A stretch of 64,000 bases of DNA from the NCBI RefSeq assembly GCF_020630935.1, contig NZ_JAHDIG010000015.1:1-64000 (forward strand). The letters are read 5' to 3'. Position numbers and translations under genes: made by a program. This DNA is from Bernardetia sp. (GTDB taxonomy: Bacteria > Bacteroidota > Bacteroidia > Cytophagales > Bernardetiaceae). This document shows, one piece after another, positions 60-29,850 of the stretch. Under the pieces are notes generated by a model, which saw only the letters and a program-made list of their open reading frames with translations, was not told where the DNA came from and searched no databases. Within the stretch, counting starts at the first letter, position 1. Each line of letters opens with the position of its first letter.

Positions 60-1220
60 TTATTTTTGCTTACGAAAGACAGATGTAAACTCATCTTGTA
101 ATCTCCATCTATCAATAATTTTAGCATAGTGCTTTTCTGTCATTGCTATTGATTTATGTCCCATTAAACGAGACACCGTATGAATAGTAATCCCACTATT
201 GAGAAAGAAAGCTCCTGCCGTAGTACGCCCTAAATGAGAGTGTAAATACTTATCTATCCCTGCACGATAAGCACAGATACGTAAGTTTCGGTTGTATCTA
301 TGATTTGGAGGTACTTCTAGCTTAAAATTATATTTCTCTAAAATTGATATAGGTTGAGGAAGTAACGGAATTTGTTGTAAAGCATTAGTCTTTCCTCTTG
401 TTATACTTATCCAATCCCACTCTTCATTTTCATCAATTTCAATATTACTTTTAAAATCTAAGTTTTTGATTTCATTAAAGGCAAGAGTAGTATAACATTG
501 TAGTAAGAATAAATCTCTGTCTCTTTCTAGTATTTTTTCTTTACTTGAAAAAGTTAGTTTTTCTAACTTATCTAGTTCTTCTATTTCTAAGTATATGTAT
601 TCTTTTTTCTGATTTGGACGATGAAATAACACATACCCAGCAAGGTAATTTTGTGGAATTTTACCTAGTGAAAATCCTAAGTTTAAAGCTGCTTTTACTT
701 TAGAAGTTGATTTTCTTACAAACTCTTCTTTACAGCTTTGACGCATAAATGTACAAAGTTGTTCTAAATGTTTAGGTCTGAATAAGTCGGCATAAAATGG
801 ATTACCTATTTTTTGACAAAATGGAACTAACCATACATCACGAAATGATGTATAGCTTTTTATAGTACCTTCTGTCCAGTTTTCAGATTTTTTACGTGCT
901 ACTAAAGAATCATATAGTTCAATAACAGTAGGTCTATCTAAACCTTCATTATGAACTCTTGCTACTTCTTGAATATGAGTAATTGAATCCTTCATTTGAT
1001 TAAAAACATCTGTCAAATCTGCTCTAATATCACTTAGTGCATCATTAATAGGCTTTGCATTCTTTCCAGTAGCATGGTTTCTTTTCCAAAATCTAGCATC
1101 TACACGTACACCAGTAGAGTATTTTTTGGAACGTTGTCCTTTATAAGAGACATACCAGTAAATTACGGCTAGTCTATTTGAGTTTTTTTGGTCTTTACGA
1201 ATTGAAAAAACAACATTCAT
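60..1220 (-). CDS. IntDOT-like tyrosine recombinase/integrase
   Basis: This is a 386-residue site-specific recombinase of the type carried by Bacteroidota conjugative and mobilizable elements. The N-terminal arm-binding region (about residues 1-90) has the GQRSKKYSTGVRVDARFW signature, followed by a SAM-like core-binding domain and a catalytic domain from about 215. Visible active-site residues are Lys277 (GKTNALQ), His329 and Arg332 (HLGR), His355 (LMGHKS) and nucleophile Tyr365 (EKHYAKI). The first catalytic Arg, normally in TGLRxSE, is Ala247 (TTLAFNE); loss of this Arg is a known feature of the CTnDOT integrase, so the enzyme is probably active. Two terminators, a tRNA and a permuted tRNA-like element lie upstream, which fits an element end near tRNA genes. 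No excisionase or mobilization gene is visible in the window. Confidence 0.9.
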   Translation of the reverse strand: MNVVFSIRKDQKNSNRLAVIYWYVSYKGQRSKKYSTGVRVDARFWKRNHATGKNAKPINDALSDIRADLTDVFNQMKDSITHIQEVARVHNEGLDRPTVIELYDSLVARKKSENWTEGTIKSYTSFRDVWLVPFCQKIGNPFYADLFRPKHLEQLCTFMRQSCKEEFVRKSTSKVKAALNLGFSLGKIPQNYLAGYVLFHRPNQKKEYIYLEIEELDKLEKLTFSSKEKILERDRDLFLLQCYTTLAFNEIKNLDFKSNIEIDENEEWDWISITRGKTNALQQIPLLPQPISILEKYNFKLEVPPNHRYNRNLRICAYRAGIDKYLHSHLGRTTAGAFFLNSGITIHTVSRLMGHKSIAMTEKHYAKIIDRWRLQDEFTSVFRKQK

Positions 1221-1453: not shown

Positions 1454-1455
1454 GT

Positions 1456-1527
1456 AATGAAAGTGGGATTCGAACCCACGTCCCTCTATTTATCAGATAA
1501 ATGCTCTACCGACTGAGCTATTTCATT
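1456..1527 (-). tRNA. tRNA-Ile (anticodon GAU)
   Basis: A 72-base cloverleaf without encoded CCA. Acceptor AATGAAA/TTTCATT pairs at all 7 positions, the D stem is GCTC/GAGC with a GG-containing loop, the anticodon stem TTTAT/ATAGA encloses loop CTGATAA (anticodon GAT), the variable loop is GGGAC and the T arm is GTGGG-TTCGAAT-CCCAC. It starts with A1-U72 and has an unusually A+U-rich acceptor and anticodon stem, unlike the G1-starting tRNA-Ile(GAU) normally found inside bacterial rRNA operons. It sits alone beside a mobile-element integrase, so it may be element cargo rather than the main host copy. Confidence 0.88.
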
Positions 1528-1587: not shown

Positions 1588-1677
1588 ATAACTCTTGCTC
1601 TGCCACTGAGCTACGTTCGCATAGTTAGAAAGAGTTATTGTGCGAACGAGGAGATTCGAACTCCTGCACTAAGTTAT
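1588..1677 (-). ncRNA. Circularly permuted (two-piece) tRNA-like element
   Basis: On the minus strand the 3' half of a tRNA comes first: T stem AGGAG/CTCCT around a canonical TTCGAAT loop (1649-1665), then CGTTCGC plus discriminator A (1641-1648). After a 20-base spacer (1621-1640) comes the 5' half: GCGAACG (1614-1620), TA, and a D arm GCTC-AGTGGCA-GAGC (1597-1611). The two acceptor strands pair perfectly over 7 bp. ATAACT (1672-1677) before the T arm can pair with AGTTAT (1588-1593) after the D arm, in the place of an anticodon stem. The spacer also carries ATAACTCTT, complementary to AAGAGTTAT (1588-1596), giving a pseudoknot topology in the precursor. I cannot identify an anticodon. It is not a tmRNA by sequence, since the D arm is canonical. 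A rearranged tRNA pseudogene remains possible. Confidence 0.55.
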
Positions 1678-1719
1678 ATATACCGAAAATCAGAATTATA
1701 AAAGTTTGTTTTAAAACTT

Positions 1720-1836
1720 ACACTATGAACAAGACGCTTACGCTAAAGAAGCAAACCTATTAAGTCCTGCCTCCGAAATGTGTTGCTCGGGACTGTCTGC
1801 TTTTTCATACTGAAGCTAAGTCTTAGGCTGTGTTCA
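1720..1836 (-). ncRNA. Candidate structured RNA upstream of tRNA-like element
   Basis: The minus strand contains nested complementary blocks: GAAC...GTTC outermost, AAGAC...GTCTT inside it, then AAGCAGAC pairing with GTTTGCTT over 8 bp (one G-U), and within that AGTC...GACT and CCGA...TCGG. No convincing ORF overlaps it. It does not match the conserved cores I know for RNase P RNA, tmRNA, SRP RNA or 6S RNA. It could be the leader or long 5' part of the adjacent permuted tRNA-like transcript. The evidence is base pairing found by eye only. Confidence 0.35.
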
Positions 1837-4029: not shown

Positions 4030-4203
4030 GGATAGAACTACTAACTTACAAAGTTACTACGAAAAATGCACCTCTACAATCGTAAAGTTTGTGAAATGTT
4101 TTTATTACAAATCTATTCCTATATATTCAAAATAATTTTTAATCTTAACTTCCAATCATGTATTTTGCAAGACAAGAACCCCTGCAACCTATCTGCTCCG
4201 TAA

Positions 4204-6486
4204 ATGAAACTGATAACTAACAAAATTATTGAAAATAATCTGAAATTCAAAGTAAATACTTTTTGTTTGTTGGGTTTTGTTTTGATGTTTTCTTGTGGGT
4301 GGCTAAAGGCACAGCCGTTTATAAAAGATGTAGATACAGAACGTTTGCTGGTTTTAGATTCGCTAGAGGAAAAATATGAACTAGAAAACTACTTTGATGT
4401 TTTTAAAGATAAAAACAGCAGTTTTACCTTTGAAGCTCTCAATCCTTACAACTTTTCGCCTTATCAACTCCATGATATTTCGGAGCAAGTGCCTACTTAT
4501 TGGTTACGCCTTTCTATTAAAAACCCTCATTATTCTACTCAAAAACTCCTTGTTCCGACTGGGTTTATAGATTCGGTAATGCTTTTTTTTGAAGAGACAG
4601 AAGGTATTTTTTCTACACAACTGGGAGGTTCATTAGTGCCTCGCTCAAAACGCAATGTAAAGCGTGGTGGAATTTCCGTTTCTGCTTTAGAGATTCCTGC
4701 ATTGAGTACAAAAACATTTTATTTTCGTTTGCATAGCAGTACCAAATTATCAGAACAAGACACTCGTTATTCGCTTCGTCGGTGGTTTACAGCCTATACG
4801 TTAGATGGTTATGAGAAGGAATTTCTGACAGCTCGTAGTTTTCATAACTTTTTTTATGGTGCAATTTGGGTGATGCTCATTTATAATTTGCTTGTCTTTA
4901 TTGCGCTTCGTGATAGACAATATTTGTTTTATGTACTTTATAATTTCTTCATTTTTATCTACATTTTTAGCAATATTGGACAGCTAGGCGAACTTTTTTT
5001 GATGGAGTTTCCTCGTCTGGATGTAGGTGTACGACTTTTTAGTGGAATTTTGTCAGTTTTTGCACTTCTGATGTTTGGAAAAGACCATCTCAAAACAGTT
5101 ATTTTTGCGCCTCGTTGGCACCGTTTTTTGCAAGTGTTGGTGTATCTGACATTAGGAATTACGATTATGTATTTCTTACGCTATTGGCATTTAGGGCGAG
5201 TCTTGACAACGATTATTTTGCCTGTTTCGCTAATTTCTCTCTTGATAGCTGCTTTTAAAAGTTTGAAAGAAGGACACCAAAATGTAAAATATTTCCTTTG
5301 GGCAAATTCATTTTTTGCTGTTGCCATTACCATTTATTCTTTAGAATTACTACTGATTATTGATGCTTCTCGCTATTTGGAAACCGTAGTTTTGGCAAGT
5401 ATTACGCTACAAATGGCTCTTTTTTCTTATGGATTGGCTGCTACATTTAATCAAACAAGAAAACAACTTATTCATAACAAACTCAAACAAGAAAGAGAAA
5501 AACAAGCTCTCATAGAAGCAAAAAATAAAGAACTAGAAGAAAAAGTAGTGGAGCGAACCAATGATTTAACAGAAAAAACTATTCTCTTAGAAGAAAAACA
5601 AGTAGAGATTTTATCACAAAGTGAAAAGCTGCAAGAACAGGCTGACGAAATTTCACACCAGCATAAGCAAATGACAGATTCTATTCGTTATGCTGAAAAA
5701 ATTCAACAAGCAATTTTACCCTCACAAGAAAAGCTACATCAAACTTTTGAAAAGCATTTTGTTATTTTTCGTCCGAAAGATATTGTGAGTGGCGATTTTT
5801 ATTGGACGGCTACTATACAAACGGCTGCACCTTCTAACTTGCCTCGTCGTTCTCCGATTGAGTTGCAGCGTGGAGAGGTTACCAAGAAAATTATTGCTGC
5901 CGTAGATTGTACAGGACACGGCGTTCCGGGGGCATTTATGTCGGTGATTGGAATTATTTTGCTGAATGAAATTGTACATTTAAAGCATACTTACAATTCA
6001 GATAAAATATTAGAAATTCTGCATCAAGAAATCAAAAAAGCATTGCGCCAAGAAGAAAAAGCGAATGCTGATGGAATGGATGTGGCACTTTGTATCGTGG
6101 AAGAATCAACAGAAAATGAACAACGAACAGTCTATTTTACAGGAGCAAAACGTCCTTTGTATTATGCTGATAAAGATAATGTTTTGAAGTCTGTACAAGG
6201 CACACGAAAATCTATTGGAGGAATAAAAAAGAAAGAAAAAGATTTTGTTTGTGAGAAAATAGAACTTCAAAAAGGTGCAAAAATCTATCTTACTAGCGAT
6301 GGATTGATAGACCAACCCAATGCAGGAGGTAAAAAAATAGGGTCAGTAAAATTTGAAGAGACATTACAAAAGATTACTGACCTTCCAATGAAAGAGCAAT
6401 ATGTAGAGCTTATAACGATGTTAGACCAACACCAACAAGACACTCCACAGCGAGACGACATTACTGTAATTGGAATTGAATTGTAG
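4204..6486 (+). CDS. 7TMR-DISM receptor with C-terminal SpoIIE/PP2C phosphatase (paralogue 1)
   Basis: The 760-residue protein has a signal sequence (about 15-36), an extracellular 7TMR-DISMED2-type beta domain (about 45-200), seven membrane helices (about 215-415), a cytoplasmic coiled coil (about 420-490) and a SpoIIE-type PP2C phosphatase domain (about 500-760). The linker has TDSIRYAEKIQQAILP; catalytic metal-binding motifs are SGDFYW, VDCTGHGVPGAFMS and the C-terminal RDDITVIGIEL. It should convert an external, possibly carbohydrate, signal into Ser/Thr dephosphorylation in the cytoplasm. Between FYWTA and IIAAVDC it carries about 24 extra residues (SNLPRRSPIELQRGE region) that both paralogues in this window lack. 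No kinase or anti-sigma partner is adjacent. Confidence 0.92.
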   Translation: MKLITNKIIENNLKFKVNTFCLLGFVLMFSCGWLKAQPFIKDVDTERLLVLDSLEEKYELENYFDVFKDKNSSFTFEALNPYNFSPYQLHDISEQVPTYWLRLSIKNPHYSTQKLLVPTGFIDSVMLFFEETEGIFSTQLGGSLVPRSKRNVKRGGISVSALEIPALSTKTFYFRLHSSTKLSEQDTRYSLRRWFTAYTLDGYEKEFLTARSFHNFFYGAIWVMLIYNLLVFIALRDRQYLFYVLYNFFIFIYIFSNIGQLGELFLMEFPRLDVGVRLFSGILSVFALLMFGKDHLKTVIFAPRWHRFLQVLVYLTLGITIMYFLRYWHLGRVLTTIILPVSLISLLIAAFKSLKEGHQNVKYFLWANSFFAVAITIYSLELLLIIDASRYLETVVLASITLQMALFSYGLAATFNQTRKQLIHNKLKQEREKQALIEAKNKELEEKVVERTNDLTEKTILLEEKQVEILSQSEKLQEQADEISHQHKQMTDSIRYAEKIQQAILPSQEKLHQTFEKHFVIFRPKDIVSGDFYWTATIQTAAPSNLPRRSPIELQRGEVTKKIIAAVDCTGHGVPGAFMSVIGIILLNEIVHLKHTYNSDKILEILHQEIKKALRQEEKANADGMDVALCIVEESTENEQRTVYFTGAKRPLYYADKDNVLKSVQGTRKSIGGIKKKEKDFVCEKIELQKGAKIYLTSDGLIDQPNAGGKKIGSVKFEETLQKITDLPMKEQYVELITMLDQHQQDTPQRDDITVIGIEL

Positions 6487-26448: not shown

Positions 26449-27585
26449 ATGACAAACATCCAAAGTTTTTACAAGGATAAAGTAATAGTAGGATTCGGTG
26501 TTGGGGTTTTTTTATTATGTCTAGGTTTTTTTCTATACATTTATATGTATATTCATACTGATATACAATTACACAGTGCTATATTAGAAGATAATTTAGA
26601 AAAAGGTTTATTTCCAGTTCCTCCTCTTTACTATTTTACTATTCATTCTTTGCGTCTTTTGTTAGGGCATTTAGGCAAAGCTAGTATAGTTGTTTTAAGT
26701 ACTGCTGTAGCTCTTAAATATTTGATTTCCATAAAAATTAGCAGTGAGTTTCGCCTAAATAAGTTTGCAACTTTATTATTTTTGTTCTTTATTCTTTTTA
26801 TTACTCCTATAAATATTAATATAGAGTCCAATTTTTTATTAGGTAAATTAGGAATAAATATTTGGCATAACTCAACTACAATATTTTTGATGCCATTTGC
26901 TTTGCTATTGTATTATGTTAGTTACTTGACAATAAAAAATGATATAATTAAGCCTAAGTATATATGGTTAATGTGTATTTTAATATTAGTAAATTCACTC
27001 AGTAAGCCAAGTTTTCTATTTGTTTTTATTCCTGTATTTCCTTTAATGACTATTCTGTTTTCTAAGAATGATTTGCAAAAGGTGGTGTTAGCTTTTTGTA
27101 TGTCTTTTTACTCTGGTTTATTGGTAGTACTAGAGTATTTGTATATATACGTCAAAAAGCCTACTCAAGATGATGGAAGTGTTGCATTCAGTTTTATGTA
27201 TATATTGAAATTGTACAGTAATAATATACCATTAGATATGCTTACCAGCATGCTATTGCCATTAGTCATTCTAATATTATTTTTTAAGAAGACAATAAAA
27301 AATAAGATGTATATCTATGCAGTGTTACTTTTTGTTGTCGCAGTATTAATTTTTCTCTTTGTACAAGAGACAGGCGATAGAGCCAATCACGGGAATTTTG
27401 TATGGCAAGTTATTGTGTGTAATTATATACTCTTTTTGATTTCTACATTTATTGGTTTAGAGCATATATCAGAAAAGGGATGGAAAGATTATAAATCAAT
27501 ACTATTTTTAGTTACTTTTCTTTTACATTTAGTAAGTGGAATATTATACCTTTTTAAAATAATAGCATATGGACAATGGGTTTAA
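26449..27585 (+). CDS. Unrecognised polytopic membrane protein of glycan cluster
   Basis: I cannot assign this 378-residue protein. It has about ten hydrophobic helices, a first periplasmic loop YIHTDIQLHSAILEDNLEKG and then FPVPPLYYFTIHSLRLLL, which resembles membrane enzymes that handle polyprenyl-linked sugars (GT-C or polymerase type). Codon use is more A+T-rich than its neighbours. It starts eight bases after the WecE-like gene and ends the run before a terminator. A polymerase, ligase or sugar-transferase role is an inference from context only. Confidence 0.7.
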   Translation: MTNIQSFYKDKVIVGFGVGVFLLCLGFFLYIYMYIHTDIQLHSAILEDNLEKGLFPVPPLYYFTIHSLRLLLGHLGKASIVVLSTAVALKYLISIKISSEFRLNKFATLLFLFFILFITPININIESNFLLGKLGINIWHNSTTIFLMPFALLLYYVSYLTIKNDIIKPKYIWLMCILILVNSLSKPSFLFVFIPVFPLMTILFSKNDLQKVVLAFCMSFYSGLLVVLEYLYIYVKKPTQDDGSVAFSFMYILKLYSNNIPLDMLTSMLLPLVILILFFKKTIKNKMYIYAVLLFVVAVLIFLFVQETGDRANHGNFVWQVIVCNYILFLISTFIGLEHISEKGWKDYKSILFLVTFLLHLVSGILYLFKIIAYGQWV

Positions 27586-27713
27586 TTCCTATAAATGTTA
27601 AACGGAGGATTTCATGTAAGTCAGACCTTTTTTTCGTTAGAACAGACCAAAATTATATCTACTCTGTTTTAAACAAGTAAAACTCTTATTTTAATCCCAA
27701 GTTTAGGTTAAAT

Positions 27714-27748
27714 AAAAAAGGTTCAAGTTTTTGCTTGAACCTTTTTTT
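27714..27748. terminator. Bidirectional terminator
   Basis: GGTTCAAG (27720-27727) and CTTGAACC (27734-27741), with A6 before and T7 after, between the convergent membrane protein and M13 peptidase genes. Serves both strands. Confidence 0.85.
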
Positions 27749-27753
27749 ATATT

Positions 27754-29850
27754 CTACCAAATCACAATTTGCTTTTCTCTACGCATTTTGTCGCCTTCTT
27801 TTACATCAAAGGCAGTAAAGAAAGGTTCAAAGTTACTGAGAGGTCCATTGGCACGGAACATACCTGGAGAGTGATAATCTGTTTCTATACGATTGCGAAG
27901 CTCATCATCTGTAAAGTTTACACGCCAAATTTGCGCCCAACTCACAAAGAAACGCTGTTCTGGAGTGAGTCCGTCTTGAGATTCTGGCTTCCCATCTCTT
28001 GCCCACGCTTTTTGAAGAGCATCATACGCTACTGCCATTCCACCCAAATCAGCAATATTTTCTCCAAGTGTAGCATCTCCTTTTACATTGATTCCATCTA
28101 AAACTGTATAATCACTATACTGATTCACAAGTGAAGTTGTGCGTTCTTGAAATTGTTTTTTATCTGTATCTGTCCACCAGTTATTCATATTTCCTTCTGC
28201 ATCATACTGACTTCCTTGGTCGTCGAAACCGTGAGAAATTTCGTGTCCGATAACAGCACCAATGCCACCATAGTTTACAGCATCGTCTGCATATTCGCTA
28301 AAGAATGGAGGTTGAAGAATTCCAGCAGGAAATACAATTTCGTTGCTCGTTGGATTATAATACGCATTTACTGTTGAAGGTGTCATGTGCCACTCTGTTT
28401 TATCTACTGGCTGACCTACTTTGCTAAGGTTATCATTCATCCACCATTTGCTGGCATTCATGAAGTTTTGAGCATAGTTGTCTGCTGAAAGTTCAAGTCC
28501 TTCATACGTTTTCCAAGTATCTGGGTAGCCTATTTTTGTTGTGATGGCAGCAAGTTTTGTCAAGGCTTGTTTTTTAGTGTCTTCTCCCATCCATTCTAAA
28601 TTTTTGATATGGTCTTCAAAGGCAGTACGTACATCTTTTATCATAATTTCTGCACGCTCTTTTGCTTTCGGACTAAATGCTTCTTTTACATAAAGCTGCC
28701 CTAAAGAATGTCCTACACCTCTATCAATGACACGCAATACTTTTTTCCAACGCTCTTGCATTTCGCTTTGTCCACGCATGGTTTTGTTGTAGAAGTCAAA
28801 AGATTCTTGTTCAAAGTCTTTATTCAAGAAGTCTGAAAAGTTACTTGCCAACTGATATTTTTGATAATCTTTAAGTGCATCTAAAGAGTTATTTTTTAAC
28901 GTTTTGCTCAATGCTTCAAAAAATTCTGGCTCACCCAAAATTACATGTTCTACACTCTCAATATTTGGAACTCCAATAGCTGACAAATGTGCCTTCCAAT
29001 CTACATTTGGAGAGAGTTTTTGAAGTTCAGCAAAAGTCATTTTATTATAATTCTTTTCTGTGTCTCTGCGTTCAGCTGGCGTGCGAGAAGCCTTAGCAAG
29101 TGCCGTTTCGATAGCGACTACATTTTTGGCTTTTTTAGTAGCATCTTCTTCACTTTCTCCCATCAAGACAAACATATTTGAAACGTGTTTTTCAAAGGCA
29201 GTTAGTTTATCTTTTAAATCTGCTGTTTCGTAATAGGCTTTTGGAAGTGAAGTTCCACCTTGATACATATAAAGTGCGTTGGTAGAGCTATTTTTTTCGT
29301 CTGCTGTTACATACGTTCCAAAAAGACCACCTGCTACAGCTTTCTGATTGGCTGAAACACTTAAAAATTCTTCTAGTGTTGTAGCATTATTGATAGCTTC
29401 CAAATACGGATTAAGTGGAGTCATTCCAAGTTCTTCACGCTTGGCTTCATTCATACCACTTTTATAAATCATGGCTACGTGTCCTTCAGCAGAATTTGGA
29501 TCTACAGAATTGTTGTTAGCAGCATTTTCTGCCACACGCTTCAAGATTTCTCTGTTTCTTTCCAAAATCTCACTAAAACTTGTCCAACGAGTTTCAGAAG
29601 CTGGAATCGGATTGTTTTTAAGCCAACTTCCATTTACATACATAAAGAAATCGTCTTGTGGACGAAAGGTAGTGTCAAAGTTAGCCAAGTCTATAGCTAA
29701 ATAATCAGTAGGTTTGTTGTCTTCTGTTGTTGCTACTTCTTCTGTGGTTTCGTTAGCTGTGGACTTTTTAGGTTCGTTGCAAGAAGTCAGTCCTAAGCCG
29801 AATGTAAGACCAAGGGCAAGCGTACCTACTTTGTAGATAGAATATTTCAT
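27754..29850 (-). CDS. M13-family metallopeptidase lipoprotein
   Basis: A 698-residue neprilysin/PepO-type zinc endopeptidase with a lipoprotein signal (GLTSCNEPKK, lipidated Cys about 24). The M13 N-terminal domain begins DDFFMYVNGSWLKNNPIPAS. The catalytic domain contains NAYYNPTSNEIVFPAGILQ, the zinc motif IGHEISHGFDDQG and the downstream ENIADLGG zinc ligand. The C-terminal Trp is the usual family end, although the preceding conserved Cys is replaced (QIVIW). It probably degrades peptides in the periplasm or at the surface. It is monocistronic, closed by the terminator at 27714. Confidence 0.96.
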   Translation of the reverse strand: MKYSIYKVGTLALGLTFGLGLTSCNEPKKSTANETTEEVATTEDNKPTDYLAIDLANFDTTFRPQDDFFMYVNGSWLKNNPIPASETRWTSFSEILERNREILKRVAENAANNNSVDPNSAEGHVAMIYKSGMNEAKREELGMTPLNPYLEAINNATTLEEFLSVSANQKAVAGGLFGTYVTADEKNSSTNALYMYQGGTSLPKAYYETADLKDKLTAFEKHVSNMFVLMGESEEDATKKAKNVVAIETALAKASRTPAERRDTEKNYNKMTFAELQKLSPNVDWKAHLSAIGVPNIESVEHVILGEPEFFEALSKTLKNNSLDALKDYQKYQLASNFSDFLNKDFEQESFDFYNKTMRGQSEMQERWKKVLRVIDRGVGHSLGQLYVKEAFSPKAKERAEIMIKDVRTAFEDHIKNLEWMGEDTKKQALTKLAAITTKIGYPDTWKTYEGLELSADNYAQNFMNASKWWMNDNLSKVGQPVDKTEWHMTPSTVNAYYNPTSNEIVFPAGILQPPFFSEYADDAVNYGGIGAVIGHEISHGFDDQGSQYDAEGNMNNWWTDTDKKQFQERTTSLVNQYSDYTVLDGINVKGDATLGENIADLGGMAVAYDALQKAWARDGKPESQDGLTPEQRFFVSWAQIWRVNFTDDELRNRIETDYHSPGMFRANGPLSNFEPFFTAFDVKEGDKMRREKQIVIW

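Follow-up and report, generated by a model that had tools for sequence, protein, structure and literature searches.

Circularly permuted tRNA genes are known from some algae and archaea. Among the non-coding RNAs that resemble tRNAs, one report (PMC8394870) describes YrlA as a tRNA mimic whose permuted tRNA-like domain is carried by a stem in place of the anticodon arm, and a second report (PMC10085705) describes the two-piece processing of tmRNA. A third report (PMC12282133) mentions a Listeria phage with non-coding RNAs that are abundant and encoded close to tRNA genes and an Rsr-like gene. A literature search found no paper naming the protein family DUF7873 (PF25283) and no paper linking Bernardetia with noncoding RNA.

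The window, i.e. the whole 64,000-nt stretch of Bernardetia sp. DNA that was analyzed, contains on its minus strand two tRNA halves that, judged from sequence comparison, are truly permuted, conserved and covarying. The initial annotation had placed the T arm and the acceptor 3' strand ahead of the acceptor 5' strand and the D arm, and this order was confirmed (minus strand, 1665-1642 then 1620-1597). The perfect 7-bp pairing of the acceptor strands (CGTTCGC with GCGAACG) was found again, and all seven pairs are of the Watson-Crick type. A 6-bp pairing claimed for the site of an anticodon stem was also recovered within the same limits, as six Watson-Crick pairs and one G-U pair. The module was aligned with its relatives, which yielded 22 modules from 12 genomes, four of them from the own genome (the copy in L084 was excluded). 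The parts of the module are as follows, with the pairing figures taken from this alignment.

1677-1671 with 1594-1588, minus strand: closing stem of the permuted module (helix 1; 89% of cells paired, 5 of 7 pairs changed on both sides)
1665-1649, minus strand: T arm, AGGAG-TTCGAAT-CTCCT (helix 2; 100% of cells paired, 4 of 5 pairs changed on both sides)
1648-1642, minus strand: acceptor 3' strand, CGTTCGC (helix 3; 99.4% of cells paired, 6 of 7 pairs changed on both sides)
1641-1621, minus strand: spacer of 21 nt between the acceptor strands, starting with ACA
1620-1614, minus strand: acceptor 5' strand, GCGAACG, the helix 3 partner of CGTTCGC
1613-1612, minus strand: TA dinucleotide between the acceptor 5' strand and the D arm
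1611-1597, minus strand: D arm, GCTC-AGTGGCA-GAGC (helix 4; stem invariant in 22 of 22 aligned modules, copies that were partly found by that very motif)

The spacer varies among the relatives both in sequence and in length (18 to 210 nt in bacteria, 7 to 38 nt in viruses). The longest one belongs to the excluded L084 copy (4126-4421, minus strand), which retains 7 of 7 acceptor pairs; its 210-nt spacer is rich in inverted repeats and is perhaps an insertion. The initial annotation proposed a spacer pseudoknot in the precursor, and the underlying complementarity of ATAACTCTT and AAGAGTTAT is indeed present in the window copy but, as judged by eye, absent from all other aligned copies. A conserved precursor pseudoknot is therefore unlikely and was rejected. 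The reading of the locus as a tRNA gene in two halves was likewise given up, as the stem at the site of the anticodon arm opens into a 5' domain of ~190 nt and no anticodon loop is present. It was correctly foreseen that standard tRNA finders would overlook the module, since ARAGORN and Rfam at gathering scores report the adjoining tRNA-Ile alone. When 18 further loci were included, Rfam at gathering thresholds reported nothing but tRNAs and one separate phage tmRNA.

The alignment allowed us to analyze the conservation of the fold. Paired cells amount to 96.4%, and 15 of the 23 pairs changed on both sides. Double changes were seen in 80 cells as compared to 21.3 in shuffles, which are the compensatory changes that had been named as support for a function. 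Sliding the partners by 1-3 columns reduced the pairing to 36-47%. Three further tandem copies are located on contig C19 of the own genome, and a DNA search revealed units in all seven genus genomes (15 genus units). At homologous loci an intact ordinary tRNA had been named as counter-evidence; instead, all six congeners carry permuted units. The Pfam search covered the proteins of the window, and the flanking genes of the congeners were compared by eye. In G001, G002 and G004, the units are flanked by a sigma-factor-like gene that appears to be a homologue of the window's neighbour, and in G002 a MoxR-like gene is also found beside the units. As the same sigma-factor-like neighbour is present in the three congeners read, the window copy is probably orthologous and not the result of a local rearrangement. 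One lone stretch, 92% identical to the unit's end from T arm to terminator, lies far from the other copies (L059 1501-1553; G000:C19:60156-60208).

The permuted module belongs to a larger RNA of ~430 nt, a putative transcript that would extend from about 1837 to 1419 on the minus strand. Its parts follow each other from 5' to 3' as a 5' domain of ~190 nt, the permuted module, a small hairpin, a tRNA-like element in ordinary order and a terminator hairpin. The fold of the 444-nt unit has a z-score of -4.05. The elements outside the permuted module are listed here.

1837-1832 with 1730-1725, minus strand: closing helix P1 of the 5' domain, ATGAAC with GTTCAT; conserved in the genus units, with covariation across taxa seen by eye and uncounted
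1830-1810 and 1745-1737, minus strand: AG repeats with a 6-nt period inside P1, CAG-CCT-AAG-ACT-TAG-CTT-CAG and TAG-CGT-AAG
1717-1725, minus strand: TAG-TGT-AAG right after P1, kept in most genus units (by eye)
1551-1546 with 1537-1532, minus strand: linker hairpin, GTAATG with CATTAC, predicted in the four units of the own genome with one pair changed on both sides
about 1455-1527, minus strand: tRNA-like element in ordinary order, tRNA-Ile(GAT) with the acceptor AATGAAA/TTTCATT, found by ARAGORN and above the cut-off with a tRNA covariance score of 73.2 bits
1419-1453, minus strand: terminator hairpin, GGACAGGCAC-ATAGGTGAG-GTGTCTGTCC, followed by a T run

The 3' tRNA-like element seems free to vary. 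Its identity in the own genome is Ile(GAT) in the window and Met, Leu and one irregular form on contig C19. The anticodon loop is regular in the window copy and irregular in 8 of the 15 genus units according to ARAGORN, so that the elements of these eight units are unlikely to decode. The loop of the terminator carries the motif CATAGGNKAGG in the 15 genus units, and looser AGG..AG loops were seen by eye in other families. A scan of the genome contigs for the terminator-loop pattern identified seven stretches, which belong to Bernardetia, Flexibacter, uncultured Cytophagales, Microscillaceae (three) and Microscilla; the Cytophagales pattern was found in no stretch of the viral contigs. Base pairing between the terminator loop and the 5' domain (CCTAA/TTAGG) was considered by eye and rejected, as it is inconsistent beyond the genus. 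Just downstream of the terminator, a gene for a tyrosine integrase (PF00589) occupies positions 60-1220 of the minus strand. The RNA or its tRNA-like element may serve as the attachment site for this adjoining integrase.

The repeats in the 5' domain were analyzed by counting AG pairs at defined distances. In 28 upstream stretches of 215 nt, 100 AG pairs are found at a distance of 6 nt as compared to 34.5 +/- 5.5 in shuffles, and between distances of 3 and 12 no other value is raised except 12, which is twice the period. The 18 bacterial domains contribute 80 AG pairs at period 6 (22.6 +/- 4.8 in shuffles). The signal in the ten viral domains is weaker (20 versus 12.4 +/- 3.2, with 2 of 200 shuffles equally high), and some of the viral upstream stretches contain an upstream permuted module. 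The regular spacing suggests a putative repetitive protein-binding site. DUF7873 would be the obvious candidate for its binder. The AG repeats bear a resemblance to a TRAP-like arrangement, a reading that was not adopted.

DUF7873 came into view because of its position, as its gene lies just upstream of the RNA in several carriers outside the genus. Carriers were scored with R1, a covariance model built here, and the carrier cut-off of 70 bits was chosen after viewing the scores, which show a gap from 71.4 to 61.2. Weaker matches are of mixed nature: those in L113 and L115 (~57-59 bits) correspond to ordinary tandem arrays of tRNA genes, and the 199 of 241 genomes with an R1 match of E <= 1e-4 do not provide a carrier count, because the matches below ~60 bits include Y RNAs and tandem tRNA arrays. 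Among the 241 Cytophagales, DUF7873 was detected in 21 of the 22 strong carriers (R1 of at least 70 bits) versus 10 of the 219 others. The Fisher p of about 1e-21 for this co-occurrence is too small, as the genomes are related and hence not independent. In the set of 59 relatives, all 11 strong carriers contain DUF7873 as compared to 3 of 48 others, and all three of these have a weaker R1 match directly downstream of the gene. A phylum-wide sample of 395 genomes contained DUF7873 in only one, the own genome.

Adjacency was observed in 13 of the 31 DUF7873-positive genomes (G008, G023, G032, G047, G054, G058, G062, G085, G100, G105, G136, G147 and G152), in which an R1 match follows the gene on the same strand at a distance of about 120-320 nt. 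Ten of the 31 lack an R1 match of 70 bits. Five of them (G032, G047, G058, G136 and G085) have a match below this value adjoining DUF7873; G160 also scores below 70 bits, yet contains a full unit, seen by eye, on another contig than DUF7873; the remaining four are G067, G124, G141 and G185. Conversely, the RNA is present in G169 where no DUF7873 match was obtained (a MAG, 79% complete). The strict descriptor of the permuted module matched in only 10 of 30 bacterial DUF7873 stretches, a raw count. Within the genus Bernardetia, the DUF7873 gene and the RNA are found at separate places, as the stretches L119 and L121-L126 contain no R1 match, and this separation in the window's own genus is a point against a simple operon logic. 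The TROVE domain of Rsr/Ro60 was found in 6 of the 11 strong carriers among the 59 relatives versus 10 of the 48 others (p = 0.05). Deinobacterium chartae, which served as a control genome, has matches to both DUF7873 and TROVE.

DUF7873 is also encoded in 79 of 50,697 phage records. In 18 phage records (one of them unannotated), the few hundred bases downstream of the gene mostly contain no annotated protein gene of notable size. These 18 records and two viral contigs make up a set of 20 viral loci, which were hand-picked to span lineages and include pairs of close relatives; TM61, TM16, FBKp24 and D472 were added after relatives had proved positive. Strict permuted modules were detected no more than 650 nt downstream of DUF7873 in 15 of the 20 loci (21 modules) and in 0 of 1000 shuffles. 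An earlier, slightly different descriptor had matched 11 of 16 loci, none of 1600 shuffles and 6 of 572 windows elsewhere, which overlap one another. No module was found by the strict descriptor in the five loci of Lak-C1, Microcoleus, PA-SR01, Keelan and L133. Two of these loci contain modules according to R1, namely Keelan with two and L133 with one. The R1 score alone is unspecific in phage loci, because R1 also matches elsewhere there with up to 41 bits. One of the modules of Pseudanabaena phage Pam2 appears spurious.

The related Rhizobium phages Y65 and TM61 differ from each other by compensatory changes in the acceptor and the T stem. In phages, the tRNA after the module reads as a regular Lys, Ile or Thr tRNA, which weakens the view that the 3' tRNA is not used for decoding. 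An annotated suppressor tRNA (TTA) overlaps part of the permuted module of Klebsiella phage FBKp24 (L178 3012-3091), and this annotation is probably a misreading by a standard tRNA finder. Gordonia phage Phendrix carries a tmRNA (89 bits, RF00023; L169 563-1091) in the same tRNA-rich region as DUF7873. It is possible that some of the phage copies are already called Y RNAs in print.

The 3' end of the acceptor provides further information. NCCA follows directly after the acceptor 3' strand in 14 of the 21 viral modules, including 10 of 11 in phages of proteobacteria, and the acceptor end thus looks functional. The tRNA that directly follows the module is without CCA in all five such loci (D517, D472, K481, Y1_11 and TM16), while the other tRNAs that ARAGORN found in the Vibrio phages D517, D472 and K481 carry it (6 of 6). 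A protein gene separates the module from the next tRNA in the Rhizobium phages Y65 and TM61, and this tRNA has CCA. The actinophages Mimi, NiceHouse and Phendrix have ACCA on their first module, while CCA is found in 1 of 15, 1 of 10 and 4 of 18 tRNAs of the respective stretches; of their three second modules, one has NCCA. This pattern in phages argues that the permuted acceptor, rather than the 3' tRNA-like element, must end in CCA. Among the 22 aligned copies, a full CCA is encoded in the Cytophagales only in L086. A G3-U70 alanine identity pair was rejected as a rule, as G-U occupies the third position of the acceptor in 11 of the 22 copies.

The structure of DUF7873 was predicted with a pLDDT of 81 and a pTM of 0.69. 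Foldseek returned no match to the predicted fold with E <= 0.001, the best VIA-align hits (Z up to 6.3) are unrelated proteins and the best PDB sequence match has an E value of 0.11. A function could not be assigned from the fold as no convincing relative was obtained, a result that shows neither a new fold nor a function.

Several known kinds of RNA were weighed as explanations for the locus. The initial annotation named permuted tmRNA genes from some bacteria but no permuted bacterial tRNA. The order of T arm, acceptor and D arm has a bacterial precedent in the Rfam model of YrlA (RF02553). YrlA is also the best match to the window stretch at relaxed Rfam thresholds (22.2 bits), and the RNA could accordingly be read as a YrlA-type Y RNA, whose permuted tRNA-like domain is tethered to Rsr (Ro60). 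The own genome possesses such a system on contig C1 (L018 3400-5400; G000:C1, about 27400-29400), where about ten Y RNA-like units are arranged in tandem behind rsr, and Rhizobium phage Y65 contains both a TROVE gene and DUF7873. The scores of 22.2 bits in the window and at most 32.1 bits in the C19 copies remain far below the gathering threshold of 69; a low YrlA score alone does not exclude membership, because the own rsr-adjacent array itself reaches only 43.5 bits. Other observations speak against this reading. No TROVE match was obtained in 5 of the 11 strong carriers, including 4 of the 7 genus genomes (two 84 and 92% complete), and the gene that tracks the RNA is DUF7873. The stem motif [AT]TACTTC, which we presume to be linked to Rsr binding, occurs at nine sites in the own Y RNA array and in none of the 15 genus units or the 15 other bacterial copies examined. 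Membership in the Y RNAs is consequently regarded as unlikely. The array on C1 has TG[TC]CGTA at ten sites, and its tRNA-like inserts differ in the type of D arm and T arm. A further tRNA-like element on contig C2 (L022 about 845-972, minus strand; G000:C2) is in ordinary order, with the acceptor GAGGCAG/CTGCCTC and, in place of the anticodon arm, a segment akin to the TTACTTC stem of Y RNA, and is perhaps an un-permuted counterpart of Y RNA.

A divergent two-piece tmRNA, or another aminoacylated RNA of ribosome rescue, would share the permuted acceptor domain with its intervening spacer, and in L019 Rfam gave low-scoring matches to tmRNA_permuted (26.7 bits, cut-off 47) and beta_tmRNA (22.3 bits, cut-off 84). 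These scores are far under the cut-offs, the module has a canonical D arm, casual inspection revealed no reading frame for a tag, a G-U pair at the third acceptor position is present in just 11 of 22 copies and a separate tmRNA is detected at 94-103 bits in 6 of the 7 genus genomes, all of which makes this identity quite improbable. The own draft genome contains no tmRNA over the cut-off (best score 18.8 bits), perhaps due to an assembly gap; the permuted unit as the tmRNA of the genome was rejected, as the six congeners have a separate one. The 7-bp acceptor, the canonical T and D arms and the NCCA of most viral copies would also suit a genuine circularly permuted tRNA gene, from which a working tRNA would arise by splicing or other joining of the halves. 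That is very improbable, as an anticodon loop is absent between the halves and the outer stem of 6-7 bp continues into the 5' domain. Finally, adjacent tRNA genes do yield a T arm followed by a D arm, as the tandem arrays behind the R1 matches in L113 and L115 illustrate and, likewise, the tandem tRNAs behind a weak YrlA match in L020. Chance or a tandem duplication of neighbouring tRNA genes is nevertheless hardly credible as the origin of the module, because its acceptor strands change together across taxa (helix 3, 22 copies), the 5' domain and the terminator loop are conserved, a similar gene flanks the units in three congeners and the identical layout is found downstream of DUF7873 in phages. 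The related idea of a rearranged relic was dropped in view of the covariation over 22 copies and the place of the module in a larger RNA.

We rather favor the interpretation that the locus encodes a tRNA-mimicking module within structured non-coding RNAs of ~430 nt, a new family that would work with the DUF7873 protein. The best reading is that of a tRNA-mimic ribonucleoprotein, analogous to yet distinct from Rsr-Y RNA and two-piece tmRNA, in which transcription, processing and protein binding are inferred. The covarying fold, the architecture of the unit with its repeat domain, the co-occurrence and adjacency with DUF7873, the CCA pattern and the presence of the RNA without Rsr are all seen in the genome sequences. 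The transcript would be cut at the acceptor by tRNA-processing enzymes, with RNase P acting at G1 and trimming of the 3' end. In analogy to permuted tmRNA, cutting would yield a two-piece tRNA-like body that is joined non-covalently and has a genuine CCA terminus. This body would be connected to the repeat domain, the likely binding site of DUF7873, by the stem in the position of the anticodon arm. Such a particle could engage enzymes that recognize the elbow and acceptor of tRNAs by mimicry, e.g. RNase P, the CCA-adding enzyme, an elongation factor or modification and decay enzymes, and it might act as a tether or decoy in tRNA metabolism comparable to Rsr-Y RNA. The 3' tRNA-like element in ordinary order, which is free to change its identity, would be a processing or docking element and not a decoding tRNA.

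For a wider version of this proposal we see as much reason for belief as for doubt. It holds that bacteria and unrelated phages have in common a new class of tRNA-mimic ribonucleoproteins, in which a two-piece permuted body with a CCA end is joined, at the missing anticodon arm, to a 6-nt-repeat domain read by DUF7873, and which would serve to handle, protect or divert the tRNA machinery independently of Rsr-Y RNA and tmRNA. If true, the RNA would provide the first context for the uncharacterised DUF7873 family of 79 phage records, place a further family of tRNA-mimicking RNAs next to Y RNA and tmRNA and offer a testable handle on the means by which phages that bring their own tRNAs protect the tRNA machinery or take it over. 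It would also mean that bacteria and phages keep permuted tRNA bodies, often with an encoded CCA in phages, that are overlooked or misannotated by standard tRNA finders.

The fold of the module itself is of a known kind, that of Y RNA and two-piece tmRNA, though the RNA lacks defining features of both. As in YrlA/Rsr, a permuted body of T arm, acceptor and D arm is attached via a stem that replaces the anticodon arm, and one dedicated protein is the suspected partner. Unlike YrlA/Rsr, the RNA tracks DUF7873 and is without the TTACTTC of the own array; it also differs from YrlA by the domain of repeats with a 6-nt period, by the NCCA after the acceptor in most viral copies and, in Cytophagales, by a second tRNA-like element in ordinary order and a terminator with a conserved loop. 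With two-piece tmRNA (RF04321, RF01850) it shares the leading acceptor 3' strand, the short intervening segment and the probable processing into two paired pieces, whereas the canonical D arm, the scores below the cut-offs and the separate tmRNA in 6 of 7 genus genomes set it apart. The permuted tRNA genes of algae and archaea likewise have the 3' half before the 5' half with a 7-bp acceptor between them; in contrast, the RNA described here has no anticodon arm, is part of a larger RNA and is found in bacteria and phages.
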